DNA of 64,000 bases from Saprospira grandis str. Lewin. GTDB lineage: Bacteria; Bacteroidota; Bacteroidia; Chitinophagales; Saprospiraceae. How positions within the stretch are numbered: position 1 is the stretch's first letter; each line of letters starts with the position of its first letter. The notes beneath the pieces were generated by a model. It was not told the origin of the DNA. It made no database searches and saw only the letters and a list, made by a program, of their open reading frames with translations. Below, piece after piece: positions 2,472-64,000 of this stretch. The translations under genes were made by a program, and so were the position numbers. The DNA lies in contig NC_016940.1 in the NCBI RefSeq assembly GCF_000250635.1, positions 4,154,501-4,218,500 on the forward strand. The letters are read 5' to 3'.

Positions 2472-2504
2472 GCCCAATTTATTTATCTCAGAATTAAAGT
2501 GAAT

Positions 2505-3488: not shown

Positions 3489-3495
3489 CTATTTT

Positions 3496-3700: not shown

Positions 3701-3731
3701 TTCTCTAAATCTCTTAAAGTTGTTTAATCCT

Positions 3732-4346
3732 ATGCGTCTGGCTCTATTTCTCCTCTTTTTTTCCCTATCTTTTGTATCCCTTTGGGGCCAAAGCAAAGCT
3801 ATAGATAAAATGCGCAAGAAAGAATTGCGTAGTCTTTGCCTAAAACAGCAAGAAGAGTTGCGCCAACTCCGGGCCGAAAAAGAAAAGCTGCAAGCCCAAT
3901 TGGCCGAAAAACGACTGCTCAATAGCTATTTGCAAATGGACCTTATGGATTGGAGCCACTGCTATGAGCAATTGGCCCAAAAACCGCCCATAGAAATCAT
4001 TATGCTGGATATCAAGCAGCTGGGGCTTTGGTCCACTAGCTTGCCCAATCAAGAAGAAAAACGGGAGCTCTTGCAATGGCTCATCAGCCAGCGACAAGAA
4101 CAGCTCAACCTCTTGAGAGACCGCTTAGCCGATCGCCAACTGCCCCAGAGCGAAAAAGAACGGCTCTTTGGCCTCTTTCAGCAAGCTTATGCCCCCTTTG
4201 CCAATAACTGGAGACGGAAAGATTTTGGACCAAACCTCCAACTTTGGGAACAAAAAAGCCGAAACTTGCTTTGGCAAAAAACGAGGGCTGATTTATCCAG
4301 CAGCCTAGCAGAAAACCAACTTATTGAAGCATCTTACCGTAATTAA
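3732..4346 (+). CDS. secreted coiled-coil protein, unknown function
   Basis: A 204-residue protein. The ATG at 3732 gives a signal peptide (MRLALFLLFFSLSFVSLWG) with a likely cut after WGQ; a TTG at 3720 is in frame but adds nothing. The next 45 residues are a heptad-like K/E/Q/L coiled coil, then comes a helical region rich in Q, L and W. No enzymatic motif is visible. The gene is five bases upstream of the YkvA-family gene and probably forms an operon with it, which suggests an envelope role. I do not recognise the family. Confidence 0.65.
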   Translation: MRLALFLLFFSLSFVSLWGQSKAIDKMRKKELRSLCLKQQEELRQLRAEKEKLQAQLAEKRLLNSYLQMDLMDWSHCYEQLAQKPPIEIIMLDIKQLGLWSTSLPNQEEKRELLQWLISQRQEQLNLLRDRLADRQLPQSEKERLFGLFQQAYAPFANNWRRKDFGPNLQLWEQKSRNLLWQKTRADLSSSLAENQLIEASYRN

Positions 4347-4351
4347 ATAAT

Positions 4352-4897
4352 ATGCAAGAAGAACATAAAGAAGAAGAAAAGGAATTGACTCCCGCCATGA
4401 AAGAGTTTGCCGATGGCGATGAACCCTTAGAAGACAAAGGCCTGCTGATTTCAGAAACTTGGTTGTATAAGATTTTTGTCAAATCGGCTTATCGTTTTCT
4501 CAACAAGCCCCTAGCTTTGCTGCAATTGCTCAAGCAATCTGCCGAGCGCCTACAGCGCTACGATAGCGCCCGAGAACTAGGCGCCGATGTGCTCGAACAA
4601 TTTCAACTACTCTTTAGAATGGTCCGAGCCTATGCCAAGGGCGAGTATAAGGGCGTTTCTTTGCAAGGAGTGGTGCTTTCTATTGCGGCCTTGCTTTATT
4701 TTGTAGCGCCCCTAGACTTTATTCCCGATTTCCTAGTCATTGGTTTGGTGGATGATATTGCCCTAATTCTATGGTTAGTTAAGAATTACCAAAAGGAATT
4801 GGAGGACTTTCAGTCTTGGGAGGATGCCCAGAAAATACAAATCGAAATTGAGCCTACTCCCATAGAGGAGGAAAAGGACCAAAGCCAAGAGCCATAA
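4352..4897 (+). CDS. YkvA/DUF1232-family membrane protein
   Basis: A 181-residue protein with the diagnostic YkvA segment near residues 105-150. There a hydrophobic helix is followed by YFVAPLDFIPDFLVIGLVDD and then a second hydrophobic helix. The flanks are acidic and helical: the N-terminal 30 residues and the last 25 are E/D/K-rich. YkvA proteins are small membrane proteins of unresolved function. It lies five bases after the coiled-coil gene. A perfect 14-bp stem hairpin follows the stop codon (see 4926-4960). Confidence 0.8.
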   Translation: MQEEHKEEEKELTPAMKEFADGDEPLEDKGLLISETWLYKIFVKSAYRFLNKPLALLQLLKQSAERLQRYDSARELGADVLEQFQLLFRMVRAYAKGEYKGVSLQGVVLSIAALLYFVAPLDFIPDFLVIGLVDDIALILWLVKNYQKELEDFQSWEDAQKIQIEIEPTPIEEEKDQSQEP

Positions 4898-4925
4898 GCA
4901 AACTGTTTTGGCCAAGAGCGAAGCG

Positions 4926-41655: not shown

Positions 41656-41727
41656 TGCAAAAGTGAAAGTTTTTCTCTATAATCGTTATTGATTTTATCA
41701 ACTACTGATTTTCAATACCTATACAAA

Positions 41728-44013
41728 ATGGAAGAAACAAATAAACCAAAGAAGACCTATCTGCTGACTAGTTTTGCGAGAATGGAAGGAGTCGATCAGA
41801 GCAAAACCCTATTTAGAGAGTTTGAGTACACCCCAGAAAATAAGGAATTAGAGTATACTTTTCTAGAGTATGATAAGGAGGAGAAAACCCCTTTGCCTGT
41901 TTTAGGCCCTTTAAGCCAGATCAATGTTTTTATAGGACAAAACAACTCTCGAAAAAGTCGCTTGCTCCGCCAAATTGCTGCGGCTAAAGAAGATACGCTC
42001 TTTATTTTTGATTGGCATAGAAACCCTATGGAAGAAATTGGGGAGTTTTTGGAGCTTGCTCGGGAATTAGTTAAAGAGAATGGGTTCTTCTCGCCTTATG
42101 ACCGAGTTCTTGAATTCAAAAACTATTTTAGAAATGGGCCAAAGAAAAACCTCTATACAGAGGAAGAGTTAGAGACCCTTTCAAAATATGAGATTAGTGT
42201 TGGGGCATTTGATGATATAATAAATATTAGCCAAGATGATTCACTTCATCAGTTATTGAACCATTTGAGATTTTTAGCTTACCTTATTTCCCTAGCACAT
42301 AAAGTATTTAATACTTTTGAGGAAAGTTATACCACATATTATAATAGGCCAGCAATACAAAAACCATCATATTATTGGAATAACTTTCGTTTTTATGAAC
42401 TACATTACAAACACTATTCTAAATACGCACGAGGATTCAACAATAGAAGCAAAGTGCCGCTCTTAGAAGTACCTCGGTATAAAGATTTTGAAAATTGGCT
42501 TACCAAAGCCAATTCCTTTATTGATTTCGCAAATCATTTGCTTAAGGTCATTTCAAATTCAGAACAAAAAAATAGGCTCTACATCCCCACGCTTCGGGGG
42601 GCGGGCACTCTCTACCAAAAGCAAAAGGACAAACTCACAAGCATAAGTCAGGATATTTACCGAGAGTCGGTCTATAAATATTACTACGGACTAGATAAAG
42701 ACAGTATCTACACAGGCCAATCTTTATACAAGGATATCCGAAAAAGTAGGAATGGGCGTAAAAAGCAGCGAGATGCTTTTAGTGAATTTGAAAAATTCAT
42801 ACAAGAGCAGTTTTTCCCTAATCATGATGAGGTAGACATTGTCGCTCTGGAAGAGGAAGAAGGTGGAAATATCAACATTTATTTATCCAAAGATTCCGAT
42901 CAGGGCAGAGAGCTACATGACTTAGGTGATGGTTTACAGGCTTTAATCTTGATGCTTTATCCCATTTTCATGGCAGAAAAAGGCAGTATTTTTCTGATAG
43001 AAGAACCTGAAATGCATTTGCATCCAGGGCTACTCTCCACCTTTATTCGGACCTTATTGAGAGAGGAAGAAATTAAAAAGAAGGAGTTGCGCTTCTTCTT
43101 CAGCACGCATTCCACTCATCTGCTAGACTTTGTCTATGAAGCTCCAGAAGATTTTAGTCTTTTCGCCTTAGAACAAAACCACCAATCAAAGGGAAGCAGC
43201 TATATTCGACAGATCAAAGAAAAGGACATAGCGCTACTCAATTTGATGGGCGTAAATAATAGCTCTTTATTCATCGCCAATTCGAGCATTTGGGTAGAAG
43301 GGCATACGGACCGCAAATATATTCAGGGCTTGCTCTATGCTTTTGAGCAATATTTGAAAGAAAAACTGGAACGTATTCCCTCTTTGCAGGAAGATTTACA
43401 CTATTGCTTTTTTGAATTTGCGGGTTCGAATATCGGACATTATTTATTTGGAGAGGAGGAAGAAAATGAGCCCGAAAGTAAAATCACTGCTAACTTTTTG
43501 CAGAATAAAATCTGTTTAGTACATGACCAAGACCATTTAGGTCGGAAAGCAAAGAGCAAGGCTGAACAACATGAAAGACTGGACAAAGCAGAAAATGAAG
43601 CATTCGCTTATTCTTGTACAGATGGCGTTGAAATGGAAAATATTTTATCAGTTAAAACTTGGGAGTATTTAATTGACCATGTTATCCTTAGGAAAAAGGA
43701 AAACTTTTCTTTTGGGGAAGCTATCCAATATGAGAGTTATAAGAATGAAAAAATTGCTGACTTTCTCAACGAGCAACTGAGCGATAAAGAGTGTTACGCT
43801 TTCTTAGCTGAGAAAGAAATAAAATCTGAAGGAAAAGGAAAACTCGCTGATGCCTTTCTAAAAGCAGTATTAAATGGCGACTTAAAATGGGCAGAGATTG
43901 CATCGCCAGGGACAAAAGCCATGCTCAAGGAAGTCTATTTATTTATTGCTGAGCATAATCCCAACTTATTTTCGACTGAGACAATTGATGAAATCAAAGA
44001 ACTATTAGCCTAA
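41728..44013 (+). CDS. OLD-family-like ATPase/TOPRIM nuclease
   Basis: A 761-residue protein with an ABC-type ATPase followed by a TOPRIM nuclease domain, the plan of overcoming-lysogenisation-defect (OLD) proteins. Walker A is FIGQNNSRKSRLLRQ near residues 68-82, with Arg in place of the usual Gly before Lys-Ser. The signature region is ELHDLGDGLQALIL near 390, Walker B is IFLIEEPEMHLHPG near 420 and the H-loop is FFSTHSTHLLDF. TOPRIM begins IWVEGHTDRKYIQGL near 519 and has the metal-binding LVHDQDHLG near 597. The start is MEETNKPK. No UvrD-like helicase follows, so this is a stand-alone (class 1-like) protein. OLD nucleases act in phage defence in several systems; that role is inferred here. 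Confidence 0.82.
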   Translation: MEETNKPKKTYLLTSFARMEGVDQSKTLFREFEYTPENKELEYTFLEYDKEEKTPLPVLGPLSQINVFIGQNNSRKSRLLRQIAAAKEDTLFIFDWHRNPMEEIGEFLELARELVKENGFFSPYDRVLEFKNYFRNGPKKNLYTEEELETLSKYEISVGAFDDIINISQDDSLHQLLNHLRFLAYLISLAHKVFNTFEESYTTYYNRPAIQKPSYYWNNFRFYELHYKHYSKYARGFNNRSKVPLLEVPRYKDFENWLTKANSFIDFANHLLKVISNSEQKNRLYIPTLRGAGTLYQKQKDKLTSISQDIYRESVYKYYYGLDKDSIYTGQSLYKDIRKSRNGRKKQRDAFSEFEKFIQEQFFPNHDEVDIVALEEEEGGNINIYLSKDSDQGRELHDLGDGLQALILMLYPIFMAEKGSIFLIEEPEMHLHPGLLSTFIRTLLREEEIKKKELRFFFSTHSTHLLDFVYEAPEDFSLFALEQNHQSKGSSYIRQIKEKDIALLNLMGVNNSSLFIANSSIWVEGHTDRKYIQGLLYAFEQYLKEKLERIPSLQEDLHYCFFEFAGSNIGHYLFGEEEENEPESKITANFLQNKICLVHDQDHLGRKAKSKAEQHERLDKAENEAFAYSCTDGVEMENILSVKTWEYLIDHVILRKKENFSFGEAIQYESYKNEKIADFLNEQLSDKECYAFLAEKEIKSEGKGKLADAFLKAVLNGDLKWAEIASPGTKAMLKEVYLFIAEHNPNLFSTETIDEIKELLA

Positions 44014-53274: not shown

Positions 53275-53428
53275 TTCGCCGCCATGGCCGAAGGCCAAAC
53301 GGCCTAGCGATGCGAAAGGGGGCGGCGAAGCCGCAGACCCAAGTTTTTGAGCGTAGCGAAAAAACTGCAGGGCCGAGCAGACCTGCGAGCCCTGAAGCGT
53401 AGCGCCGCAGCTTTGCTGCGGAGGCCCC
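53275..53428 (-). repeat. GC-rich hairpin element, copy 18
   Basis: Minus-strand copy with CCGCAGC-AAA-GCTGCGG, the GCTACG...GGGCTCGCAGGTCTGCTCGG core, a TTTTTTCGCTACGCTCAAAAA second hairpin and GCGGC-TTC-GCCGC. Confidence 0.85.
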
Positions 53429-53439
53429 AAAACAGTCCA

Positions 53440-53652
53440 CTACTCCCCCATCAGTGATTTGCCCTTTTTGAGCATTTGGAAGGTTCGGAAGAGGCTAAAG
53501 AGCAAATAGGCCAAAAGCAGCCAATTCATCCAGGGATCATTGTCTAGATAAAAGAAAAGTAGCCCGATAACGACTAGCTTTATCGCCAATAATCCATAGG
53601 CTTTGTACTGTAGGTTGCGCATAAAGGCAGCCCGTTCTTTCTCTGTTTGCAT
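53440..53652 (-). CDS. small membrane protein of unknown function
   Basis: A 70-residue protein. Two hydrophobic helices (KLVVIGLLFFYLD near residue 24 and WMNWLLLAYLLFSLFRTF near 42) are joined by a short acidic turn, DNDPW. Both ends are basic, so both termini probably face the cytoplasm. The start MQTEKERAAF is chosen over an upstream one at 53676. It lies 12 bases from a GC-rich element and is divergent from the Hsp70 gene. Confidence 0.6.
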   Translation of the reverse strand: MQTEKERAAFMRNLQYKAYGLLAIKLVVIGLLFFYLDNDPWMNWLLLAYLLFSLFRTFQMLKKGKSLMGE

Positions 53653-53834
53653 AAACTTAAGTTCTAAAATTGGCAAGATACAATAAGCCCGTAAAAAACA
53701 ATCAATATTTGACAGGGGCTATCAGTTTATGCAGAGGCCAAAAGGACTAAACCCCTATAAATCAAGGGCTGTAGAGTTGGCCAAATTTTTTATTTGCTGC
53801 CTGCATTCACATTACTATAAACAGGCGACAAATT

Positions 53835-56093
53835 ATGCAGAAAGTCATTGGAATTGATTTGGGCACCACCAATAGCGTGATGGCCTATAAGGTGCTTGAT
53901 ACCAAGATATTGCCCAATATTGAAAAAGAAGAAAACACCCCCTCGGTGGTGCATATTGATAGTAGTGGGCAGGCGAGTATTGGAAAAATAGCGGTAGATA
54001 GCAAACTGGCTCTAGACCCCAAAAACACTGTTTTTTCGGCCAAGCGCTTGATGGGCATGCCCTTTAGCCACCCTATGGTGCAAGAAATGGTTAAGGAGAG
54101 CAAAAAAAATGATGGCTACTATAAATATAGCATTCGCAAAAAGCACAATTCAGAAGATGCCCTAGCCATTGTTCTTCATGGTCGGGAATACTCTCCCGAA
54201 GATATTTCGGCGGAGGTATTGCGTAAAATCAAGCGCGATGCAGAGAGCCATTTGGGCGATAAGGTGAGCCATGCCGTGATTACGGTCCCGGCCTATTTTA
54301 ATGACAAGCAGAAGAATGCGACCAAAAAGGCGGCGGAGAAATCGGGCTTGATTGTCTCTAAACTATTGGCAGAGCCCACAGCGGCCGCTATTGCCTATGG
54401 TGTAGACCAAAAAACGGAAGAAAGCAAAACCATTTTGGTCTATGATTTTGGTGGTGGCACCTTTGACCTTTCGGTCCTCACGGTAGCTAATGGGCTATTT
54501 ATGGAGCAAGGCACAGGCGGCGACCGTTGGTTGGGCGGCGATGATATTGACCGCTTGTTGAGCCAACATATTTACCAGCTAGTTGAAAATGAGTTTGACT
54601 TAGAAGAAGGGCATATTCATCGGTTTTTGGAAAATGCGCCAGAGAAAACTCGTTTTGCCTTTGCGGCCGAGAGTCGCAAGCAAGTAGAGCGCATCAAAAA
54701 GGACTTGAGTAAGCGCAAAAGGAGCCATTTTGAATTGGATGATTTGTTAGAAGATGAAGAAGGCGACCTTATTGACATTGACATAGAGATTAGTCGAGTT
54801 GATTTTGAGGACCTCATTCGGCCCACTATTGCCAAAACCATTCGCTTGATTGATGATCTATTGGCCGAACTGAACTATGAGGAAAATATGATCGATGCCA
54901 TTTTACTGGTGGGGGGAAGTTCTAGAATCCCTTTGGTCAATGAGATGTTGATGCAGCGATTTGGGGCCGCCAAAGTACAGCTGAGCGAAGACCCCATGAA
55001 TGCCGTAGCCAAAGGCGCGGCTATTTTGGCCCATCGTCTGGGCAACAGTGGAGAACTGGAGCAGCAGGAAGACTGGGGAGAAGAAGAGGAAGAATTTCAG
55101 GTCCTCTACAGCTCTTCTCATGATATTTATGTGCGCCTAGAAGATGAAAACGGCCAAGAAGAGTTTGAGCGGGTTGTTGAGCGACAGATTCCGCTCCCCA
55201 TTGTGGAGCAAAGAGAGTACAAAACAGCGGCAGATCAGCAAAGGTTGATTAAGGTGGAACTCTTTTCTAATAAAGAGGAAGGCGGAAAAGAAGAAATTGG
55301 CTTGGGCTTTTTGGTTTTAGAAGAAGATTATCCCGCCAACAGCAGCTTTATTTTTCATTTTGAAGTAGACACCGACAATACCCTCAAGCTATTGGTTGCG
55401 CCCAAGAACAAACCCAATCAAAAGTCGGAAATTCATATTACCCGAGGCAATAAGGACCAGAAGTTTTACCGCACAATTGATGAGGAGATCAACAACTTTA
55501 ACCGCTCTGGGGCCAATGCTAGCCAGATGCAAAAACTACAAAGCGATTTGGTCAAACGCCTCAAGGCCACCAACCAACTGGCCCAAACCGCAGATGACGA
55601 TAGCCAGCTTTGGGACAAGCACATCTATGAAGTAAAAGAAGAAGTGGCCCAAGCCCAGCATTATCAAGAAGAAAGCAGCCATGAGCCAGCCGATGGCAAT
55701 ATAATGATTGCTCGGATTCTGCTCAATAATTACGAAAACCTAATCGGTAGAGAAGCCAGTGAGTTGATCCGTATGTTGCTGCAAAAAATTGAGCTAGAAA
55801 ACGACATTCTGGCCATTCAGCAGGCGCGGCAAAAGCTAGAGGAGCTCATTAGTAACTTTATGGGGCTACTAGACCTCTTTCTATTTATTGTGGCCGCCAA
55901 TCGGGCCAAAGAAAAAGGAAGTATGAGCGACTCTCGACGCCTCAGAGACATTCACGACCAAGCCGAGCGAAAAATGGAGCGGGGTCAAGTTGATGAAGGC
56001 TTTGCCATATTGAATGAACATCAGGACCTCAGACAAAAATACTTGGGAGAAGACAGTTCAGCCGCCTTTATCAATACTAGCCTCAAGCGATAG
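53835..56093 (+). CDS. accessory Hsp70 (DnaK-like) chaperone
   Basis: A 752-residue ATP-dependent chaperone, longer than the usual 600-640 of DnaK. The nucleotide-binding domain is intact: phosphate-1 IGIDLGTTNSVMAYK at residues 5-19, VITVPAYFND near 155, phosphate-2 VYDFGGGTFDLSVL near 202 and the adenosine motif LLVGGSSRIPLV near 356. The typical linker and start of the substrate domain (DVTPLSLG in DnaK) are missing. In their place is VLYSSSHDIYVRLEDEN with an acidic stretch before it, and the substrate domain is only weakly like DnaK. A roughly 150-residue helical C-terminal extension, rich in E, Q and R, follows. It leads a gene group that also has J-like and GrpE-like genes. Confidence 0.9.
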   Translation: MQKVIGIDLGTTNSVMAYKVLDTKILPNIEKEENTPSVVHIDSSGQASIGKIAVDSKLALDPKNTVFSAKRLMGMPFSHPMVQEMVKESKKNDGYYKYSIRKKHNSEDALAIVLHGREYSPEDISAEVLRKIKRDAESHLGDKVSHAVITVPAYFNDKQKNATKKAAEKSGLIVSKLLAEPTAAAIAYGVDQKTEESKTILVYDFGGGTFDLSVLTVANGLFMEQGTGGDRWLGGDDIDRLLSQHIYQLVENEFDLEEGHIHRFLENAPEKTRFAFAAESRKQVERIKKDLSKRKRSHFELDDLLEDEEGDLIDIDIEISRVDFEDLIRPTIAKTIRLIDDLLAELNYEENMIDAILLVGGSSRIPLVNEMLMQRFGAAKVQLSEDPMNAVAKGAAILAHRLGNSGELEQQEDWGEEEEEFQVLYSSSHDIYVRLEDENGQEEFERVVERQIPLPIVEQREYKTAADQQRLIKVELFSNKEEGGKEEIGLGFLVLEEDYPANSSFIFHFEVDTDNTLKLLVAPKNKPNQKSEIHITRGNKDQKFYRTIDEEINNFNRSGANASQMQKLQSDLVKRLKATNQLAQTADDDSQLWDKHIYEVKEEVAQAQHYQEESSHEPADGNIMIARILLNNYENLIGREASELIRMLLQKIELENDILAIQQARQKLEELISNFMGLLDLFLFIVAANRAKEKGSMSDSRRLRDIHDQAERKMERGQVDEGFAILNEHQDLRQKYLGEDSSAAFINTSLKR

Positions 56094-56116
56094 GCCAGTT
56101 CCTCATTTTATTTTGG

Positions 56117-56144
56117 AGCCGCCGCAGCAAGCTGCGGCGGTTTC
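56117..56144 (+). terminator. hairpin after the accessory Hsp70 gene
   Basis: CCGCCGCAG pairs perfectly with CTGCGGCGG around CAAG and is followed by TTTCTATT. It may attenuate transcription before the next gene; the T-tract is short. Confidence 0.45.
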
Positions 56145-56188
56145 TATTCTAGTCTGCAAAATCAGGTTTAGCCCAAAAACTCAAGAAG

Positions 56189-56734
56189 ATGAATTGTCCT
56201 ATTTGTGAACTAGCTGGTTTGGAAGAAAACCGCCAGCAATGTCCCCAATGCGAAAGCGATTTGCGGCCCTTTTTCTTATTGCAAGCACTTGATGAACAAG
56301 AGCGTATAGAAAAAGAGCAACTTAAACAACAAGCCAAAAAAAGAGAGCAGGCTGCGCTGCGTCGAGGCAGAACCCCCATTTTAATCGCTTGGGGAGCTAG
56401 TTTTCTGGCCCTGGCAGTCCTTTTATATTTTATTTGGCCCAAAAAGGCCGTAGCTCCAGTGGCCAAGCAAGAAGAGTCCTCAAAAGAAGAAATGCTGGCC
56501 TTGCAAAAGCAACTTAAGCAAGCGAAAACAGAAAGCGACAGCCTCCGCCAAGCCTTAGCAGAACAGCCTAAGTCCGTTTATGTCTACACCGTAAAAGCAG
56601 GTGATTCGCCCATTCGCTTGGCTCGTTTCTTTTATGGCCAAGACGAAGAATACAAACGCCTCTTAGAAGCCAATGAGCTCGCCTTAGATGCCATGCTTAA
56701 AGTAGGCCAAAAACTGACTATTCCAGCCCTATAA
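56189..56734 (+). CDS. zinc-ribbon, membrane and LysM domain protein
   Basis: A 181-residue protein. Its first 25 residues contain two CPxC-type pairs (NCPICE and QCPQCES) forming a zinc ribbon. A basic/acidic coil follows (residues 35-65), then one membrane helix (PILIAWGASFLALAVLLYFIW near 67-88). A second coil follows (QKQLKQAKTESDSLRQALAE), then a C-terminal LysM-like domain: YTVKAGDSPIRLARFFYG near 131 and LKVGQKLTI near the end. The LysM part suggests contact with peptidoglycan or another glycan across the membrane; the zinc ribbon would be on the other, cytoplasmic side. It lies 10 bases before the giant repeat protein gene. Confidence 0.82.
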   Translation: MNCPICELAGLEENRQQCPQCESDLRPFFLLQALDEQERIEKEQLKQQAKKREQAALRRGRTPILIAWGASFLALAVLLYFIWPKKAVAPVAKQEESSKEEMLALQKQLKQAKTESDSLRQALAEQPKSVYVYTVKAGDSPIRLARFFYGQDEEYKRLLEANELALDAMLKVGQKLTIPAL

Positions 56735-56743
56735 ACCCAAGTT

Positions 56744-59700
56744 ATGTACCTTATTGTCATTGTCCTCATTTTGGCCCTAGCAGGAGGCTACAGCGCCTAC
56801 TACAACAACTACGGCACGGTCCTCAAAAAGGCCAAAAAACGCCTAGAACAAGGCCAGCCCCAAATTGCCCTAAAGCTATTTAAATCGGGGAACAAACAAT
56901 ACCCCATAATAGCCGAGAAATTTTTGCGGCAAGATGGGCCAGCCCTACTGCAAATCGAAAACAAACAGGCCGCTATTGACTTTCTGCTTCCTTTGGCAGA
57001 AGACTACCCTTTCGTTGCAAATTGGTTGGCTGAACATGCGGCTCAGCTATTGGCCCAAAAAGAGTTTATTCCCTTTCGGCACCTGATCCTTTCTGCCCCC
57101 GAGGCGGACTGGTCCAAAAAGCTACTCTTTAAGTACATAGAACTGCCTGAGGCCCAAAGCAAGCTAAAAATTAGCGACAAAAAGCAGCTTTTACAGCCTT
57201 TGCTGGACCAAAAAGAGGCAAATGCTATCCGTTTATGGATCCTCCTTTTGGCGCCCTTTTTTGAACAGGACAAAAAAGCAGAACAATATCTGCCCGAAAT
57301 TAGAACCTACAAGGCCCAATCGGCTAAGGCTCAGCGGCTCTTTTATCTCTTTTTAAGCAATCGTCAAAAAAAGAGAGAACTGGCCCCTTACCTAAGCGAG
57401 CTACAGCAGTTGGCCAAAGAAAGTACAACTGCACAGGAGATTATCTTAGCTGAGGCCAAAGCGCTTTTTGAAAGAAAAAATGAAGCGACTGCTTTGACGC
57501 TTATCCAACCTTTTTGGGAAAAGAGCGCAGACGCCCAGCGCCTCTATAATCGCATTTATTTAAAGAAAATGAGGGCCGAAAAGAAGCCCCAAGCTCTGGC
57601 TCAAGTGCTTCAGGCTTTAGAGCGCTTTCCCAGCCAATTAAGCAGCCAAGAAAAAAGGGAGCTACAAACCGCCTTAGCCAATCTACAGCTCCAACAGCTA
57701 GAATATAGCTTTAAACCCCTACGCAAAAAAGCCAACCTAAATGATTGGGCCAGCTTTGTGCAGCAACTCTTGGCCGCAGCCAAACTGAGCTATAAAACAA
57801 GCGCCCTAGAAGCCTTTTTAGAAGAAAAAGTAAATTATCTGCTGCAGTTTTCCCTAGAAGAGGGCCAAAGTGCAGAAAAAGCCAAAAAATATAAACAGGC
57901 GGCGGCCACCTATAAAAAAGCGGCGGACTATGCCCGTCTGCTCAAAGATAAGTTTAGCCAAGCCCGCAGCCATATTGGCCGATTTGATTTTAGATATGTT
58001 TTGACGGCTATTTATGGGGATATCCCCTCTAGTCGCATTCAATATTATGAGTACTACCTCCACCGACATACGGATAAAAAAGAGGTGGCCGCCATCCGCT
58101 ATGCGCTAGCCTTTCAACTGGCCCAAAAGAAACAGTTTAAAGCCGCCCTAGAGCAGATTAGCTGGTTAGAAACCTATAGCCGAAACCCCCAAATTATTGA
58201 GCTTAAACGCTACTGCCTACAGCAAAAACAAAAAACAATGTTGAGCTTGCTGGCGGTCTATAATGCTACAATTTATGGAAGCGATTTGCGAAAGCTCAAA
58301 GCCCTAGAGGAGAACTGGGATACTTATTCGGAGGCCTTGTCTTTCTTTTATCCGGAGCGAAGAAGGGAGTTTCCTATGATCAAAAAGTATATCCATGAGC
58401 GAATCGTAGGCCTTTACCAACAACAAGAAAAGTTTGTTGATCTCTTCCAATTGCTTACTGCCCGACAGAATTTTTTTAAGGTATCGCCCGACCAGCTAAA
58501 AATGATGGCCGTTACTGCTTTCAAAATACTAACTGCTGAAGAAGGACCTAGCTTAAGCGATACATTTATTCAGAAGTTATTGGCCGTTTTTCTTTCCGCC
58601 ATCTATAATAATGAAGTTATCTTCTACTCCTTGGAGGATACCGAATGGGATGACGACTATCAGTTTAGCCAAAGACAAATTATTGGAAGTCGCCCCAAAA
58701 GAGCTAGCTTCTCCTACCCTGAAAATATAAATAATCAAGCCGTCTCTTCCGACAATATTGACTTAGGAGCAGTACAAAAGCGCTTACTCAAAACCCTAGA
58801 AGATCATCTACAGTCTTCTTATTCTGCTACTTTATTGCAGTTTTATGAAGCAGAGAAAATAGCTATTCAGCTAGCTTGCCAATACTTTCCTCTTGCAAGC
58901 CTTAATATCCCTAGCCCTTTCTTGGGTAAATATGACAAAAGCAGTGCGAATGAACTATATCTAAAGCTAGCCGATCAACTTCCCATTCCCATTCAAGACA
59001 AAACAGAAATTGATGCAATTAGGCGATATGCTCATGCCCCTCACCAAAAAGCCAAGCCCATAATCGCTTACGATAAATTACAAAAAATAGAAGCGGAAAT
59101 AGAATTAAGGCTTAAAGGAGATCGACAAAGACAGCTCAGTCAGTCTTGCTCCCTAAGCGAGCAAAATCTTATTCAAAAATACTTTCCTCTAGACTATCAA
59201 GAGCTTTTACAAAGAGCATTGCGCTACCTAGAAAATGGAAGAGGCGGAGATCGTGGAGACCGCAATTATACAACAGCTAATATTCGCCTCCTACAGCAAA
59301 ATATTTTTCGCGGAGAGAAAGAGCTAGACTACTTACTAGCCACACATCTGGCCAATCTTGCTATCGGAGAGGTTAATGAAGATCAAATTACGCAGTATGA
59401 GGCCTTTCAAAAAATGAGAGTTGCCCAAAGCTACCACGAAGATAGTGCTTACATTTTGCGCAATACGATTGCTATTAGCAAGCATTTGCTTCTAGAGCAT
59501 GTTTTCTCTGGCCTAGAAACTAAGCAGGCTAATGAGGTGAAACAGTTTGCCAAAAGCTTAACCTATAACTATCAAAAGGAATTTAAAGAGGCCGCCCAAG
59601 AAGCCCTACAGTTTTCTCTAGAACAGTTTGGTGAGCCCGGCTCTGAAAACAGAGTACTTTTCGAAAGAGAAATAGGATATACAGGCCGAAGAGGTCTTCT

Positions 59701-59818
59701 TGATGATTACAGTTTCCTCTATGAGACTCGAGCCAGCTCAAGCAGCTTAAATCGTAAGGGGCTAGCTATTGCAGGACGCATGAAATGGGTAAAACAACTT
59801 TCTGAAGGTCATTTTTGA
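56744..59818 (+). CDS. membrane-anchored helical-repeat protein
   Basis: A 1024-residue protein anchored by one N-terminal membrane helix (MYLIVIVLILALAGGYSAYY). The rest is a long helical-repeat solenoid of TPR or related type. Examples are KKRLEQGQPQIALKLFKSG near residue 31, AEKAKKYKQAAATYKKAADY near 385 and AIRYALAFQLAQKKQFKAAL near 450. The C-terminal third is less repetitive. The 3' part is more AT-rich. The chain is very K/Q/A/L-rich. A scaffold role for the Hsp70 group is inferred from its position, ten bases after the LysM gene. No named family is recognised. Confidence 0.75.
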   Translation: MYLIVIVLILALAGGYSAYYNNYGTVLKKAKKRLEQGQPQIALKLFKSGNKQYPIIAEKFLRQDGPALLQIENKQAAIDFLLPLAEDYPFVANWLAEHAAQLLAQKEFIPFRHLILSAPEADWSKKLLFKYIELPEAQSKLKISDKKQLLQPLLDQKEANAIRLWILLLAPFFEQDKKAEQYLPEIRTYKAQSAKAQRLFYLFLSNRQKKRELAPYLSELQQLAKESTTAQEIILAEAKALFERKNEATALTLIQPFWEKSADAQRLYNRIYLKKMRAEKKPQALAQVLQALERFPSQLSSQEKRELQTALANLQLQQLEYSFKPLRKKANLNDWASFVQQLLAAAKLSYKTSALEAFLEEKVNYLLQFSLEEGQSAEKAKKYKQAAATYKKAADYARLLKDKFSQARSHIGRFDFRYVLTAIYGDIPSSRIQYYEYYLHRHTDKKEVAAIRYALAFQLAQKKQFKAALEQISWLETYSRNPQIIELKRYCLQQKQKTMLSLLAVYNATIYGSDLRKLKALEENWDTYSEALSFFYPERRREFPMIKKYIHERIVGLYQQQEKFVDLFQLLTARQNFFKVSPDQLKMMAVTAFKILTAEEGPSLSDTFIQKLLAVFLSAIYNNEVIFYSLEDTEWDDDYQFSQRQIIGSRPKRASFSYPENINNQAVSSDNIDLGAVQKRLLKTLEDHLQSSYSATLLQFYEAEKIAIQLACQYFPLASLNIPSPFLGKYDKSSANELYLKLADQLPIPIQDKTEIDAIRRYAHAPHQKAKPIIAYDKLQKIEAEIELRLKGDRQRQLSQSCSLSEQNLIQKYFPLDYQELLQRALRYLENGRGGDRGDRNYTTANIRLLQQNIFRGEKELDYLLATHLANLAIGEVNEDQITQYEAFQKMRVAQSYHEDSAYILRNTIAISKHLLLEHVFSGLETKQANEVKQFAKSLTYNYQKEFKEAAQEALQFSLEQFGEPGSENRVLFEREIGYTGRRGLLDDYSFLYETRASSSSLNRKGLAIAGRMKWVKQLSEGHF

Positions 59819-59827
59819 TTTTTTTTC

Positions 59828-59970
59828 GGGGCCTCCCGCCTTCGGCGGGCGCTACGTTTCGCAGCTCGCTATTCGCTCGGCCCTTCGCCGCTTTCAGCGG
59901 CTCGGTCTGGCCTAACGGCCACTGCTGCACATCGCTAGGCCGTTTAGGGCCCTGCGGGCCCTAAATCAAG
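59828..59970 (+). repeat. GC-rich hairpin element, copy 19
   Basis: CCCGCC-TTC-GGCGGG, a GCTACGTTTCGCAGCTCGCT core with the ATTCGCTCGG variant, GCCGCT-TTC-AGCGGC, GGCC-TAAC-GGCC and a GGGCCC-TGC-GGGCCC end. It starts 10 bases after the preceding stop. Confidence 0.88.
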
Positions 59971-60009
59971 ATATTCCACTCGCTTTACTTCAAAAATCTA
60001 ATTATAGCT

Positions 60010-60306
60010 ATGCTACACAATCCATACGATGTTTTGGACCTAGACCAAAACGCCAGCAAAAAAGACATCCAAAAAGCGCTACCCTTGGCCCTAGCCAAAC
60101 AACGCAAAGAAAAAAAATACTCGCCCAAAGATATTATGCAGGCCCAAAAAGAACTGCTCGATCCAGCCAAACGCCTAGCCGCCGACTTTCTATTCCTGGA
60201 CCGTATTCGGGCCAAGCGCCCCCGAAAGTTTGAGCAGCCAGAGCTGCCCAAAATCAAAGCATTAAACCAACTCGCCCAAAACCCTTTTGATCCCAACCAA
60301 CTCTAA
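60010..60306 (+). CDS. J-domain-like protein lacking HPD
   Basis: A 98-residue protein that follows the J-domain pattern. NPYDVLDLDQNASKKDIQKAL gives helix I and the start of helix II, and QAQKELLDPAKRLAADFLF gives helix III and the conserved D-x-x-x-R-x-x-x-D-like end. The HPD tripeptide, which in DnaJ triggers Hsp70 ATP hydrolysis, is absent: helix II runs LALAKQRKEKKYSPKD straight into helix III. Since the neighbour is an Hsp70 gene and a GrpE-like gene follows 13 bases later, I read it as a divergent co-chaperone or a non-stimulating adaptor. The alternative is an unrelated short helical protein. Confidence 0.7.
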   Translation: MLHNPYDVLDLDQNASKKDIQKALPLALAKQRKEKKYSPKDIMQAQKELLDPAKRLAADFLFLDRIRAKRPRKFEQPELPKIKALNQLAQNPFDPNQL

Positions 60307-60319
60307 AACAACTTCTAAA

Positions 60320-60775
60320 ATGGATAAAGCAGCTATAGAAAAAGAACTCAATGATTATTTCGTTGCCTTTGGCCGAAAAGAAATCCAACTCAAAAACCAA
60401 ATAGAAAAGGCAGAAAGAGCCCAATACGAACAGCTAAAAGACTTTGCCGTGGGCCTAATTGAAATGATTGATGGCCTCGACCGAAAAATAGAACGCCAAA
60501 ACAATAAAGAAGAAGAGGAAGAAAGCAAAGAAGCTCGAAAAGCCCTTAAAACGCTAATCAATATGCGCAAAAAAATGCTGCGCTTACTCGACCGCTTTGG
60601 TATTCGACCTATTGTGTTTCCCGATAATCAGCTCATTGAATCCTATGCCAAGGTCTTGGGCAGCGAACCTAGTCGAGACCATCAGGACCGAGAAATCCTC
60701 CGCATTATTCTCCCCGGCTATATGCAGGCTAGCCAAATTATCCGTCAAGCAGAGGTAATTGTCGTAAAAAATTAA
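60320..60775 (+). CDS. short GrpE-like nucleotide-exchange factor
   Basis: A 151-residue protein. The N-terminal 90 residues form a long amphipathic coiled coil (KELNDYFVAFGRKEIQLKNQ onward). The end resembles the GrpE beta domain: RLLDRFGIRPI near residue 88 matches the family LxxxGVxPI strand, REILRIILPGYM matches VxxVxxxGYxL, and IIRQAEVIVVKN matches the final LRPAxVxVxK strand. The HPD-less J-like gene is just upstream. An in-frame start 33 bases upstream is rejected because the ATG at 60320 avoids overlap. It would release ADP from the accessory Hsp70. Confidence 0.78.
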   Translation: MDKAAIEKELNDYFVAFGRKEIQLKNQIEKAERAQYEQLKDFAVGLIEMIDGLDRKIERQNNKEEEEESKEARKALKTLINMRKKMLRLLDRFGIRPIVFPDNQLIESYAKVLGSEPSRDHQDREILRIILPGYMQASQIIRQAEVIVVKN

Positions 60776-60837
60776 AGGCCTTGGCCCATCCCCCCATAAA
60801 TTTAACCGCCGAAGAATATAGCCAAAAGAAAAAAGAC

Positions 60838-60958
60838 AGCTGAGCGGCCACAACAAGCCCTTTAGGGCGTCTTCGACGACCAAAGGGAGTAACCACCCGC
60901 CAAAGGCGGACAACAAGGCTGCAAGCCGCAGTTCGACGACCAACGGGAGTAACGCCCC
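60838..60958 (-). repeat. GC-rich hairpin element fragment, copy 20
   Basis: Two tandem copies of the variable module (TTCGACGACCAAAGGGAGTAA and TTCGACGACCAACGGGAGTAA) with GGCGGACAACAAGGC between them, and a terminal AACGCCCCAAAA. The GCAGGTCTGC core is absent. It shows that the module can exist apart from the rest. Confidence 0.75.
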
Positions 60959-61031
60959 AAAAACAACACAGTTCACTTAAAGCTCTTAGAGAAGAAAAAC
61001 AAACCACTTCAATAAACAAAAATTAATACCT

Positions 61032-61577
61032 ATGATTATTATTCTACTCATTGTTATCGCTTTTATCCTCTGGAAGATTTACAGCCAAGAAGAGCGCCCT
61101 ATCAAAAGTAAAGCGACAAAAGCTAGCCCTTCATCGACCAAAAGGGGCAGCTACAGCCCTAGCCTGAGCAGCCGAAAAAGAGAAAACCTCAGCCACCTTC
61201 AGCTCTTGGTCAGCTTAGCCATGTCTGATGGAGTATTAGATAAGGCAGAGCTGAAGTTCATTACTCATATTGCCGTTCAAAGGGGCATTCCCGAAGATCA
61301 TTTTTTGGCCATCTTTAGAGATCCAACCATCATCAGCTATGTTCCGCCTAGCTCCGATGCTAGCCGCCTGATCAACCTTTATGAGATGGTCATGCTGATG
61401 ATGATTGATGGGGATATTGACAAAAACGAGATCTATGTCTGTGTAGCAACTGCCCGGAAATTGGGCTTCAAAGCTGAAGTGGTCTCCCTATTGGTTGAAG
61501 TACTGATAAAACAGATTGCCGAGGGCATTGCCAAGGAAATTATTTTGAGAGACCTAGAAAAAAGAATGCGCGCCTAA
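61032..61577 (+). CDS. TerB-like membrane-anchored protein
   Basis: A 181-residue protein. One membrane helix (IIILLIVIAFILWKIY) is followed by a basic, Ser-rich linker (residues 25-60) and a helical TerB-like domain. The pattern LVSLAMSDGVLDKAELKFI near 64-82 and MLMMIDGDIDKNEIYVCVA near 124-142 is two acidic, D-x-D-like loops at the start of helices, as in TerB. TerB proteins are linked to tellurite and other stress or phage-resistance gene sets. Its stop overlaps the next start by one base (TAATG). Confidence 0.75.
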   Translation: MIIILLIVIAFILWKIYSQEERPIKSKATKASPSSTKRGSYSPSLSSRKRENLSHLQLLVSLAMSDGVLDKAELKFITHIAVQRGIPEDHFLAIFRDPTIISYVPPSSDASRLINLYEMVMLMMIDGDIDKNEIYVCVATARKLGFKAEVVSLLVEVLIKQIAEGIAKEIILRDLEKRMRA

Positions 61578-62830
61578 TGCTGAATAAAAATAAAGTATTG
61601 ATCCTGACCGCTTTGGCCATCATTATTGTCTTTTTGGTTGCGGCCTGGGATGGACAACAGCGGCAAAAACGATTTGAGCAAGAAGAGCTTCCTCAAATTT
61701 TGGCCAAGAGAAAACAAGCTGCGCTTCAGCTAAGAGAAGCGCTTATCCAGCAACAAACGCCAGAAATTCAGGCCCTTATTAAGCAAAATGACAGCTTTCA
61801 GCTAGACAGCATTCCTTATGATACCAGCATTGGCGTCTTTGTTTTCTACAAGCAATTTTGGCTCAACAAATACCCCGTTGAGCGGCAGATGCAGGACCAT
61901 ATTGAGCTAGCAAAAATTAGCTTTCAAAATGCAAAAGTAGATAGCCAATGGGCCCAAATTGAGGCCAAAATTGCCAAGCGCTTTGATGCCGAATTTGTGG
62001 ATAAAATCCAGATCGAAATCAAACGCCAACTCATTAGCGAGAGCAAAGCAGAGGGCCAAGGGTTTTTAGAATTACCCGATTATAAACTCATCAAAACAGT
62101 GCCCGAAGAAGAATTTGAAGCCCTTTGGCAACAAATTGATGAGCAAATTGCCGCCAACCGCTCGCAAGCGGCCCAAAAACAACTCGATCGAGACTGGAAC
62201 AGCTATCGTCGCCGACTCAATAGCAAGGGGAAAAACTTGCTCGATCAGCGAGGGAAAACGGCTTTTATTAGTTTTGCCACAGGGCAGAGTAAAACGCTAC
62301 AATCGGGCGCCCTGAGCATAGATTGGCCCAGCAGCACAAGCAGTTATCATGCGGCGGCCCTCTCCAGTTTTGTAGAAGAAATTGAGGTCCAACAATACCA
62401 GGGCAACAGTCTGTATACAGGAGCTCAGCCCTATGCCAACTGCTTCGGCCGCGGACTAAGTTGTGGCTATCGGAGCAATTGCTCAGAAATTCGGGTGCGC
62501 GCCCCTTATGAATCTGATGTGATTGTGAGCATTAAAGACCGCTGGGATGAGGTGGTCGACCACGCCTATATTTCTGCGGGCGGCAGCTATACCTTTCGCC
62601 TGCCCAATGGCTCCTATCAGCCCTTTTTCTACTATGGCAAAAGCTGGCATCCCTATAAAAAAATGCCCTCCAAGGCCTGTAACAACCTAAAAGGCGGCTT
62701 TCTGCAAAACACCCTCACGGGCAAAGATGGCCTGCAATATCTCTCTAACCAAATACTCACTTACACCCTTCGCCTACAGCGCAATGGTAATTTTTCTACT
62801 CGGCCCTCTTCTTTTTCAGAGGCCTTTTAA
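61577..62830 (+). CDS. membrane-anchored protein with C-terminal Cys-rich beta domain
   Basis: A 417-residue protein. One N-terminal membrane helix (VLILTALAIIIVFLVAAW) is followed by about 230 residues of coiled-coil and helical sequence. A C-terminal domain of about 110 residues starts near 295 with PYANCFGRGLSCGYRSNCSE, which has three closely spaced cysteines. VSIKDRWDEVVDHAYISAGG then leads to YQPFFYYGKSWHP. I recall similar cysteine-containing beta domains in other uncharacterised Bacteroidota proteins, but I cannot name the family. The topology puts this domain on the outer side if the helix is an N-in anchor. It is coupled to the TerB-like gene. Confidence 0.65.
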   Translation: MLNKNKVLILTALAIIIVFLVAAWDGQQRQKRFEQEELPQILAKRKQAALQLREALIQQQTPEIQALIKQNDSFQLDSIPYDTSIGVFVFYKQFWLNKYPVERQMQDHIELAKISFQNAKVDSQWAQIEAKIAKRFDAEFVDKIQIEIKRQLISESKAEGQGFLELPDYKLIKTVPEEEFEALWQQIDEQIAANRSQAAQKQLDRDWNSYRRRLNSKGKNLLDQRGKTAFISFATGQSKTLQSGALSIDWPSSTSSYHAAALSSFVEEIEVQQYQGNSLYTGAQPYANCFGRGLSCGYRSNCSEIRVRAPYESDVIVSIKDRWDEVVDHAYISAGGSYTFRLPNGSYQPFFYYGKSWHPYKKMPSKACNNLKGGFLQNTLTGKDGLQYLSNQILTYTLRLQRNGNFSTRPSSFSEAF

Positions 62831-62839
62831 ATCAAAAAT

Positions 62840-63043
62840 ATGTCTGAGCAAAACAATCCTCCACAAAACACAATTGGCCCTATTGGCTGCATAGCTATCG
62901 GCATTGTTATCCTTTTTGTATTGGCTATTATTGGCCAACTCGCAGAGGGTATTGATCGAGTTTTTGCCATGATGCCTTGGTGGGCCCATGCCCTACTAAC
63001 GGCCTCCGTTTTCTACCTTGCTTATAAATATCTAGATAAATAA
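62840..63043 (+). CDS. small membrane protein of unknown function
   Basis: A 67-residue protein with a polar N-terminal 12 residues (MSEQNNPPQNTI) and two hydrophobic segments (GCIAIGIVILFVLAIIG near residue 15 and WAHALLTASVFYLAYKYL near 48). It sits 9 bases after the preceding stop and 6 bases before the next start, so it is in the same operon. Function unknown. Confidence 0.65.
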   Translation: MSEQNNPPQNTIGPIGCIAIGIVILFVLAIIGQLAEGIDRVFAMMPWWAHALLTASVFYLAYKYLDK

Positions 63044-63049
63044 TAACAT

Positions 63050-63487
63050 ATGTTCAGCTCCATTGTCATTATAGGCCTGGCAATCCTGGCCTACAGCCTC
63101 TTCAAATTCTCCTCGGCCCTAAGCGAGGACCGCTACGAACTAGAGGAGCAAAGCCTAGCCGAAAAATTTTCGACTGTAGTCCATACACTCAACCAAGCCG
63201 CCTTTAATGGACAGGGCAAAATCGTCCCGCTAGACCAGCGATCTTTTAATCTTTGGCAGCAAGGAAAAAACCAGATCATCAACTTTCATTATAGTACCGG
63301 GCACCTCAGTATTTGCTGGAAATACAAGTATTTGCAAAAAGAATTGGTACATGAACGACAATTTGATAATGTCCGAAATTTGAGTTTGCTAGAACAACAA
63401 CAACTAGCCGAACGCATGATCCAAGAAATGAGGCCACTAATCGCTCAACATCAACAAAATGTTTTGCTGCGCGGCAGAGAGTTCTAA
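63050..63487 (+). CDS. membrane-anchored protein of unknown function
   Basis: A 145-residue protein. One membrane helix (SSIVIIGLAILAYSLFKF) is followed by an alpha/beta domain with NFHYSTGHLSICWKYKYLQK near residue 78 and a helical end rich in Q. It is the last gene of the Hsp70-associated group and ends eight bases before a strong terminator. No family is recognised. The first 20 residues would place the rest on one side of the inner membrane. Confidence 0.65.
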   Translation: MFSSIVIIGLAILAYSLFKFSSALSEDRYELEEQSLAEKFSTVVHTLNQAAFNGQGKIVPLDQRSFNLWQQGKNQIINFHYSTGHLSICWKYKYLQKELVHERQFDNVRNLSLLEQQQLAERMIQEMRPLIAQHQQNVLLRGREF

Positions 63488-63495
63488 ACTATACG

Positions 63496-63521
63496 ATCCC
63501 CTCTTTGGAGGGGATTTTTTT
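63496..63521 (+). terminator. intrinsic terminator at the end of the Hsp70 locus
   Basis: ATCCCCTC pairs perfectly with GAGGGGAT around TTTG and is followed by seven T residues, which join directly to the GGGGCC of GC-rich element copy 21. Confidence 0.88.
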
Positions 63522-63660
63522 GGGGCCTGCCGCCTGCGGCGGCCGGGCCCTTGCAGGGCTCGCAGGTCTGCTCGGCCCTTCGCCAGCAAGCTGGCTGGGT
63601 CTGCCGGCTACGCGGCCCCCTTACAGGCCCCTAGGCCTGCGGCCCTTCGGGCCTGCTAGC
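63522..63660 (+). repeat. GC-rich hairpin element, copy 21
   Basis: Third subtype: GCCGCC-TGC-GGCGGC, GCCCT-TGC-AGGGC, the GCTCGCAGGTCTGCTCGG core, GCCAGC-AA-GCTGGC, then a changed third hairpin GCCGGCTACGCGGC and GGCCC-TTC-GGGCC. Confidence 0.88.
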
Positions 63661-63854
63661 TGTGGCTGCAGGTTGAAACCAGCAGCCAATTTAGGTGCAG
63701 CACAGCCCACTCCTCACCAACAACTGGCCTGCAGCTTAAAAGCCGCAGGACCTGAAAACCGAATAGCTCCTTTCCACAAACAAAGCAGGGGCTTTTAAGC
63801 CGCTGCGGCGAGAAAGACCAAAGCCCAATAAGAATTTAGGCTGCAGATAGCGGC
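63661..63854. other. short gene-free segment with palindromes
   Basis: Contains an imperfect TTnnAA palindrome (GCTGCAGGTTGAAACCAGCAGC-like, from 63665) and the related CTGCAGCTTAAAAGCCGCAG. No gene or RNA seen. Confidence 0.6.
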
Positions 63855-63993
63855 AAAGCCGCCATGGCCGAAGGCCAAACGGCCTAGCGATGTGAAAGGG
63901 GGCGGCGAAGCCGCAGACCAAGGCCGTCAGGTCGCAGGGCCGAGCAGACCTGCGAGCCCTGAAACGTAGCGCCCGCCGAAGGCGGGAGGCCCC
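63855..63993 (-). repeat. GC-rich hairpin element, copy 22
   Basis: Minus-strand copy with CCCGCC-TTC-GGCGGG, the GCTACGTTTCAGGGCTCGCA core, GCGACC-TGAC-GGCC and GCGGC-TTC-GCCGC. The window ends just past its first bases. Confidence 0.85.
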
Positions 63994-64000
63994 TAAAAAA

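Follow-up and report, generated by a model that had tools for sequence, protein, structure and literature searches.

A mobile five-gene Hsp70 cassette of Bacteroidota with a J-like protein lacking HPD, a putative sensor or defence device

The 64,000-nucleotide stretch of Saprospira grandis str. Lewin analysed here (the window) contains a gene cluster at 53835–63487 that begins with an Hsp70 gene. The first five genes, encoding the Hsp70, a zinc-ribbon/LysM protein, a helical-repeat protein, a J-like protein and a GrpE-like protein, constitute a real, dedicated and mobile Hsp70 machine. Judged from its sequence, this cassette looks like a chaperone-driven sensor or defence device, a role that we treat as putative. 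The histidine-proline-aspartate (HPD) motif is treated as indispensable to J proteins. The cassette family dropped HPD together with contact positions on Hsp70, yet still travels as a single unit that retains a predicted J fold, the ATPase motifs and a GrpE-like protein. It offers a direct test of whether Hsp70 can cycle, and be controlled, when the HPD relay is gone.

The five-gene unit and its distribution

When 84,980 species genomes were scanned with aligned Hsp70 sequences spanning the segment around GTGGDRWLGGDD, 370 pattern matches were obtained, from which 11 loci were confirmed; the scan requires one of two short patterns, so more divergent members of the cassette are missed. At all 11 loci, as in the window, the order Hsp70, zinc-ribbon/LysM, helical repeat, J-like and GrpE-like is kept on one strand. 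The cassette is complete at eight loci and partial at three: L049 has a 101-aa (amino acid) open reading frame (ORF) in the LysM position and a cut GrpE gene, the Hsp70 of L055 is split in two pieces and its helical gene is interrupted by N, and the Hsp70 start of L057 is missing. All hosts belong to the Bacteroidota except that of L057; this 5.3-kb contig carries the bin name 'Staskawiczbacteria', possibly a misassignment. L058, from a second S. grandis strain (DSM 2844), is a near-copy of the window locus. At the nine non-S. grandis loci without L055, 34 of the 36 gaps between the genes measure −14 to 24 bases, and the remaining two are 83 and 85.

The comparisons indicate co-divergence of the five genes as well as their horizontal movement. 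Over eight loci, the identities of the five proteins, taken pair by pair, are correlated at 0.79–0.96 (28 pairs; Mantel p ≤ 0.0015; L049, L055, L057 and the near-copy L058 left out), and part of this correlation is common descent since host relatedness was left in. Moreover, L053 (a Bacteroidales metagenome-assembled genome) and L054 (Flavihumibacter) have accessory GrpE-like proteins of 91% identity, against 43% between their canonical GrpEs, which means horizontal transfer provided that the L053 contig is correctly binned. This host comparison does not include the canonical GrpE of L056.

The five-gene unit is rare and patchy. The helical protein was found in three of 298 genomes of the order (single-sequence search) and in one of 395 genomes sampled from the phylum, namely the host genome itself (profile, E ≤ 1e-10). 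No orthologous Hsp70 was listed for three of the four other genomes of the genus (one only 63% complete).

The genes that follow the GrpE-like gene differ between loci. Among the 12 loci (window included), two of which end at a contig edge directly after the five-gene unit, the 417-aa protein occurs in three, the TerB-like protein only in the two S. grandis strains and the 67-aa protein only in the window. Because the TerB-like and later membrane genes vary, the nine genes of the window are not one conserved system, and that reading was rejected. The initial annotation had proposed a search for the same neighbours in other Bacteroidota; the first five genes are neighbours at 11 of 11 loci, and the TerB-like gene is not among the shared ones. 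Its dedicated, membrane-linked chaperone system is likewise retained as an Hsp70 with its own GrpE-like and J-like proteins and two anchored scaffolds, and not as a system of nine genes. DUF6804 lies directly 3' of the GrpE-like gene at L048, L053 and L054 (the L054 copy by similarity only), and further off, behind Zorya genes, at L051. It is present in 38 of 296 genomes of the order, thus mostly outside the cassette, and is no exclusive part of it.

The features of the window locus are as follows.

53835–56093, + strand: Hsp70, 752 aa, with intact ATPase motifs, the family signature GTGGDRWLGGDD, no DnaK linker and a divergent beta part of the substrate-binding domain (SBD-beta)
55041–55124, + strand: stretch matching the DnaK linker position, with no VLLLDV-type motif in 12 of 12 family members
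56189–56734, + strand: 181-aa protein with a zinc ribbon (CxxC...CxxC), a membrane segment at aa 64–82 and a C-terminal LysM
56744–59818, + strand: all-helical repeat (TPR-like) protein, 1024 aa, with an N-terminal anchor
58361–59818, + strand: C-terminal half (aa ~540–1024) of the helical protein, diverged in DSM 2844
60010–60306, + strand: J-like protein, 98 aa, without HPD
60112–60123, + strand: KKYS at the canonical HPD place, in the loop between model helices 17–34 and 39–50
60320–60775, + strand: GrpE-like protein, 151 aa, ATG start at 60320
61032–61577, + strand: TerB-like protein, 181 aa, with an N-terminal membrane anchor
61577–62830, + strand: anchored 417-aa protein, also at L048 and in DSM 2844
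62840–63043, + strand: 67-aa membrane protein, window only
63050–63487, + strand: 145-aa protein with an N-terminal membrane segment, matched in DSM 2844 only by a 75-aa ORF
63495–63516, + strand: terminator-like stem-loop with a T run

All nine ORFs at 53835–63487 lie on the + strand, and Pfam supports HSP70 (333 bits), LysM (36.3), GrpE (55) and TerB (25.9) above cut-off, in agreement with the gene content first described. The GrpE-like protein clearly passes its cut-off of 25.8 bits, as do the copies of L048, L053, L054 and L056, which bears out the GrpE assignment that the initial annotation had marked for checking. The four Cys of the zinc ribbon are invariant in 11 aligned rows (window included, L049 excluded). 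A simple hydropathy scan predicts one membrane segment each in the helical, LysM, TerB-like, 417-, 67- and 145-aa proteins; a hydropathy peak of 1.64 at the Hsp70 C-terminus (threshold 1.6) was treated as noise. The model of the helical protein recovers TPR/HEAT-type proteins among the 50 fold-search matches listed, with TM scores of 0.09–0.16, and suggests a 'helical solenoid', nothing finer. The host genome (4.40 Mb, two contigs) also encodes a canonical DnaK, a second Hsp70 that is presumably HscA-like, its own GrpE and three J proteins. As DnaK, DnaJ and GrpE are present elsewhere in the genome, the Hsp70 set of the window is an extra machine.

The spacing of 1–15 bases initially noted applies to most of the window genes, five of the eight gaps being short (−1 to 13 bases), and not to the other three of 95, 191 and 256 bases. 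The 191- and 256-base gaps contain GC-rich repeat-like sequence (by eye). GC-rich interspersed repeats occur across the 64-kb window, one 14-mer being present in 13 copies (14-mer count). The stem-loop proposed as the single terminator of the cluster exists, and is a good candidate only, because the region exceeds shuffled sequence in terminator-like sites generally (35 sites vs a mean of 16.4).

A second GrpE match was found in 12 of 298 genomes of the order, and four of the eight looked up exceed the Pfam cut-off. An accessory GrpE was rejected as a marker of such machines: only one of the four over the cut-off adjoins an Hsp70 (L069), and L071 ends at a contig edge. At L072 (7675–8674), adjacent zinc-ribbon/LysM-like and GrpE-like genes were observed, with no Hsp70 match within the 18-kb stretch.

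HPD and its contact positions on Hsp70

HPD is found in none of the 12 J-like proteins of the cassette, and in all three PF00226 matches of the S. grandis genome. The loop that replaces it reads KKY or KKF in most J-like proteins and KEY, KEF or RLY in the others. The window protein scores 19.4 bits with Pfam DnaJ, below the cut-off of 27.8, and the DnaJ model matches 11 of the 12 J-like proteins at E ≤ 1 (best 3.5e-5). The structure model of the window protein (pLDDT 78.8, pTM 0.55; the last 37 residues predicted less well) has helices at 5–8, 17–34, 39–50 and 52–61. In a Foldseek comparison with the PDB, 40 of the best 50 of 92 matches are titled J-domain or Hsp40 (best TMt 0.73), including 5nro chain B, a DnaK-bound J domain; no E-value at or under 0.001 was obtained among these 50 matches. 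The J-like protein is thus predicted by its model to adopt the four-helix J fold. Both the 98-residue protein without HPD and its J fold, which structure prediction was to check, had been proposed in the initial annotation and are upheld here, the fold as a prediction.

The Hsp70 retains its ATPase side. The motifs GIDLGTTNS/TSNS, KR, EPT and DFGGGT are kept in the 10 members that have the region, and the window protein has the actin-like ATPase domain (HSP70 333 bits and motifs). Its Pfam HSP70 match reaches model position 569 of 599. SBD-beta is weakly recognisable (hhalign to the DnaK SBD, 92 columns, E 2e-5, probability 76%), and no alignment of the C-terminal region to the DnaK lid was obtained with hhalign.

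In DnaK, the HPD Asp disturbs an ion-pair network of R167 in the nucleotide-binding domain, D393 in the linker and D481 in the SBD, according to the accessible text of PMC7289447. All 10 Hsp70s of the cassette family that have the region carry K in place of R167 and A in place of N170, and the linker motif VLLLDV is absent, with no D at its place (D393), in 12 of 12. Although the linker region aligns only loosely, the motif itself is certainly missing; the rows contain the two S. grandis near-copies. We take N170 to be an HPD contact on DnaK, and the assignment of DnaK residue numbers to the motif residues is likewise our assumption. The altered linker beside an intact ATPase domain, as first reported for the window protein, therefore extends to the family, with motifs kept in 10 of 10 and the linker motif gone in 12 of 12. 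In this family, HPD and target residues of it on Hsp70 have been lost jointly. At L055 (3038–4690), a zinc-ribbon-like CxxC...CxxC insert occupies the linker place of the Hsp70, the sole case among the 12 rows.

Other accessory Hsp70 operons provide a comparison. In type C (L043, L069), TPE replaces HPD, and the Hsp70 keeps R, N and the D of TILVD/TILID. The Hsp70s of type B (L037, L038, L040, L041) have no R, N or linker motif in four of four, and the neighbouring protein at L037 and L038 starts with a J-like NPYR segment with no HPD. Taking the cassette family and types B and C together with the mixed locus L039 (below), loss on the J side tends to accompany loss on the Hsp70 side, the independent cases being few. 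In a tree, the 10 family Hsp70 rows and five DnaK rows form separate branches (DnaK 100/99, family 96/96); long branches separating type B from the other rows are flagged by the tree program.

Both type C operons (L043 2585–7895, L069 4979–10336) encode a helical-looking protein, a J-like protein with TPE, a GrpE-like protein and an Hsp70; the J-like and GrpE identities of the L043 proteins come from Pfam. The type B operons L037 (3274–10916) and L038 (257–8199, from a genome of the window's genus) encode a protein with a J-like start, a ~310-aa protein, an 816–854-aa Hsp70, a kinase-type protein and a TerB-looking protein (by eye). The kinase-type protein of L037 is a kinase plus AAA (Pfam), and DUF6804 is also found at this locus. 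The small proteins beside the Hsp70s of L037 and L038 look TerB-like by eye; Pfam gives no family for that of L037, so the TerB link to other accessory Hsp70s is a lead only.

Genomic neighbours and differences between strains

Neighbours were counted within about 10 kb of the cassette, as far as the contigs extend. BrxA, BrxB and BrxC flank L048 (PADLOC E 9e-98, 1e-72 and 2e-270), and HsdR (1e-303) and a TIR protein (PADLOC 7e-18; Pfam TIR_2 3e-24) flank L055. At L051, the GrpE-like gene is followed after 342 bases by ZorA, ZorB and ZorE in the same orientation (4e-143, 3e-82, 7e-84). Upstream of the L056 cassette lies a type IIG gene split into two ORFs (4e-183, 1e-93), and downstream a phage integrase. 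In addition, an integrase (Pfam) is found in the flank of L053, and transposase- and integrase-like ORFs (by eye) in that of L054.

Defence-gene neighbours therefore occur at four of nine informative places vs one of 15 control windows (one-sided Fisher p 0.047, or 0.012 if the control match is discounted). S. grandis was counted once among these places, and L049 and L057 have no flanks. The controls were fifteen 20-kb preset windows from four genomes (162 proteins), in which only the SspA and DndA families were matched, each by a single member; we regard both matches as the same housekeeping cysteine desulfurase. From the flanks of L050, L052, L053, L054 and the two S. grandis loci, 31 ORFs with a length of 200 aa or more gave one PADLOC match at 1e-30. 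This mad3 match near L053 was rejected as a defence gene, the sequence being that of an ABC transporter. Weaker matches in the S. grandis flanks are a WYL regulator (1e-23) and an AAA protein (6e-19). The two core proteins scanned, Hsp70 and the helical protein, have no PADLOC 2.0.0 model match at E ≤ 0.1.

A TerY-P-like triad of kinase, VWA and PP2C genes (1958–4922) precedes the L051 cassette, oriented in the same direction. The window further contains an 1842-aa HATPase/sacsin-like protein (34644–40172, − strand) with a PADLOC match of 1463 bits to TmtA, presumably Tiamat; this gene lies 13.7 kb upstream of the cassette and was excluded from the neighbour count. A 774-aa AAA protein (41689–44013, + strand) shows weak AriA/GajA/OLD-like matches.

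The two S. grandis strains differ in defined segments of the cluster. Identities between the window and DSM 2844 are 99% for Hsp70, 93% for the LysM protein, 97% for both the J-like and GrpE-like proteins and 96% for the 417-aa protein. The helical protein is 94% identical over aa 1–529 and 36% from aa 530, with a sharp change near aa 540, where nucleotide identity falls to 37–58%; the synonymous divergence (dS) of the diverged segment is not computable. The TerB-like protein is only 26% identical, and between the two replaced segments the J-like and GrpE-like genes are almost the same in both strains. No counterpart of the 67-aa gene was found in DSM 2844. The pattern may represent a recognition half exchanged together with its TerB-like partner, which one strain pair cannot prove. 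A helical swap as a general trait was rejected, as no comparably sharp step was seen in six other locus pairs. When window 53367–64000 and the next 15.8 kb are compared with the other S. grandis strain (G001 C2 3990000–4032900), the cassette and the adjacent block are in changed relative order. The mobility, the defence-gene neighbours and the swap go beyond the initial annotation.

Proposed mechanism and related systems

From content, order, co-divergence, transfer, joint relay loss, neighbours and the swap, all read from sequence, and from the modelled J fold, we infer complex formation, topology, sensing, effector action and a defence role as follows. The chances appear about even that the mobile five-gene cassette builds a membrane-tethered Hsp70 switch with a J-like adaptor, most likely for surveillance against phages or other invaders. 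The switch would run apart from the cellular DnaK-DnaJ-GrpE system. With its anchor in the inner membrane and its body on the cytoplasmic side, the helical-repeat protein would collect the machine and would sense or bind a target, mainly via its exchangeable C-terminal half, and the zinc-ribbon/LysM protein would link the complex to the cell-wall side. The J-like protein would act as a structural adaptor docking Hsp70 onto the helical scaffold rather than as an HPD trigger. Hsp70 would alternate between ATP and ADP states and be reset by its own GrpE-like protein, and its state would control the assembly or release of membrane effectors encoded downstream. Candidate effectors, varying by locus, are DUF6804, the 417-aa protein, the TerB-like protein and the small membrane proteins. 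The defence purpose is best regarded as a good hypothesis, not a result. If it is true, a chaperone cycle becomes another bacterial immune decision element, and the swapped half of the helical protein points to what is recognised.

A bolder form of the proposal is offered tentatively, as possible rather than probable. The cassette may represent a new defence class in which the decision is taken by an HPD-independent Hsp70 switch and not by a nuclease or NLR. A helical sensor in the inner membrane, whose exchangeable C-terminal half would serve recognition and be matched to a co-exchanged TerB-like partner, would load Hsp70 through the J-like adaptor and fire small membrane effectors, and the J-like protein and Hsp70 would be a natural J-Hsp70 pair that discarded the HPD-R167-linker relay on both sides.

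Several points weigh against the surveillance proposal. The anchoring and sidedness of the membrane proteins are predicted from hydropathy, the structure model of the helical protein is weak (pTM 0.37), and Pfam gives no nuclease or known toxin family among the nine window proteins. No relative was confirmed in viral contigs with Hsp70, its signature segment, the GrpE-like and the J-like protein as queries; in part of these scans confirmation relied on the window copy, itself divergent, and remote members may have escaped detection. At L048 (scan label L047; that of L055 is L035), the GrpE-like and 421-aa proteins have no match in plasmid records and the LysM protein has none in phage records. 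The neighbour test is small, with controls from four genomes only, and the positive loci were scanned via neighbours chosen by eye, which favours matches, with differing flank lengths. L053 and L054 have only mobile-element-type genes nearby (by eye), and the S. grandis flanks have no PADLOC match at 1e-30 within 10 kb. As to the relay, D481 is uninformative, as Bacteroidota DnaKs have N there (motif placement), and L039 is mixed, with R lost, N kept, the linker D lost and a J-like start with HPN. We know of no phenotype for the cassette. L050 and L052 are located among housekeeping genes (by eye). At L039 (4258–11039), a tandem pair of Hsp70 genes stands beside the 985-aa protein carrying this HPN-bearing start.

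The housekeeping setting of L050 and L052 would fit a specialised envelope proteostasis, in which scaffold and LysM proteins keep Hsp70 at the membrane, where it would serve in the folding, extraction or sorting of envelope proteins, and the defence neighbours merely reflect travel in genomic islands. Hsp70, GrpE and TPR proteins are established quality-control parts, the ATPase motifs are intact and SBD-beta is recognisable. However, the distribution is patchy and the unit moves horizontally (helical protein in 3/298 order genomes and 1/395 of the phylum sample), three of four other genomes of the genus have no orthologous Hsp70 listed, and half of the scaffold is replaced between strains, as is seldom the case in housekeeping quality control. 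On balance we find this explanation unlikely. An accessory function, with the cassette folding or gating the large proteins of neighbouring restriction, BREX or Zorya systems, would account for the BREX (L048), HsdR (L055), Zorya (L051) and type IIG (L056) genes nearby; it is improbable, as no two of the four have the same neighbour system, and no strong PADLOC match of such kind was obtained at the remaining five informative places. The J-like protein might also be a Pam16-type brake, filling the J site and stopping an HPD-bearing J protein such as DnaJ, in keeping with its predicted J fold without HPD and with Pam16 as the HPD-less partner at mitochondrial Hsp70, and this we consider very improbable: the partner Hsp70 itself has no R, N or linker D, so an HPD protein should have little to trigger, the joint loss, set against the two roles first suggested for the J-like protein (recruiting or restraining Hsp70), disfavours the restraint of a normal Hsp70 and favours an adaptor specific to the cassette Hsp70, and no second J gene was noticed by eye in the cassettes, where no J-model search was made.

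The five-gene cassette was not recognised among the matches listed in the literature searched (open-licence PMC papers only). That no named system has this set, as stated initially, stands in that PADLOC has no match for the two core proteins, and is qualified by a related theme already in print. The closest printed precedent is the HSP70/GrpE theme of GAP1-N2 GTPase systems (Kaur et al. 2020, PMC7159879). In the accessible text of that paper, the second theme of GAP1-N2 neighbourhoods combines HSP70 and GrpE with an FNIII protein fused to DnaJ or TPR, thus sharing HSP70, GrpE and DnaJ-domain or TPR parts with the cassette; GAP1-N2 systems elsewhere include membrane proteins, zinc ribbons and peptidoglycan-binding domains, with a predicted anti-invader role. 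Unlike the cassette, these systems are centred on GAP1 and GTPases with FNIII proteins, and their HSP70/GrpE theme, with its fused DnaJ domain, is mainly described there from actinobacteria and firmicutes, whereas the cassette belongs to Bacteroidota and has a stand-alone HPD-less J-like protein and one anchored helical scaffold. Pfam found no GTPase or FNIII family among the nine window proteins, and no GAP1 model was run.

The cassette resembles the DnaK-DnaJ-GrpE system in its Hsp70 ATPase motifs, modelled J fold and GrpE family match, but differs in the loss of the linker, R167, N170, D393 and HPD, in the unrecognised lid, in its anchored scaffolds and in its mobility. Tim16/Pam16 similarly has a J fold without HPD at a membrane-bound Hsp70 motor. 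Pam16 pairs with the HPD-bearing Pam18 on a normal mitochondrial Hsp70, whereas in the cassette the Hsp70 itself is changed and no Pam18-like partner was noticed. In bNACHT25, a J protein participates in phage sensing; the accessible text of PMC12169576 concerns an NLR-related protein with DnaJ, and a dedicated Hsp70 cassette was not noticed in it. CoCoNuT systems, according to the accessible text of PMC11090510, are predicted defence systems in which a Hsp70 homologue is accompanied by helical repeats and, in certain types, also by TerY-P genes; their CnuD Hsp70-like proteins have degenerate ATP motifs and go with McrBC homologues. McrBC was not noticed beside the cassettes, where no search aimed at it was made. 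Unlike CnuD, the Hsp70 of the cassette has intact ATP motifs and is accompanied by GrpE-like and J-like partners.

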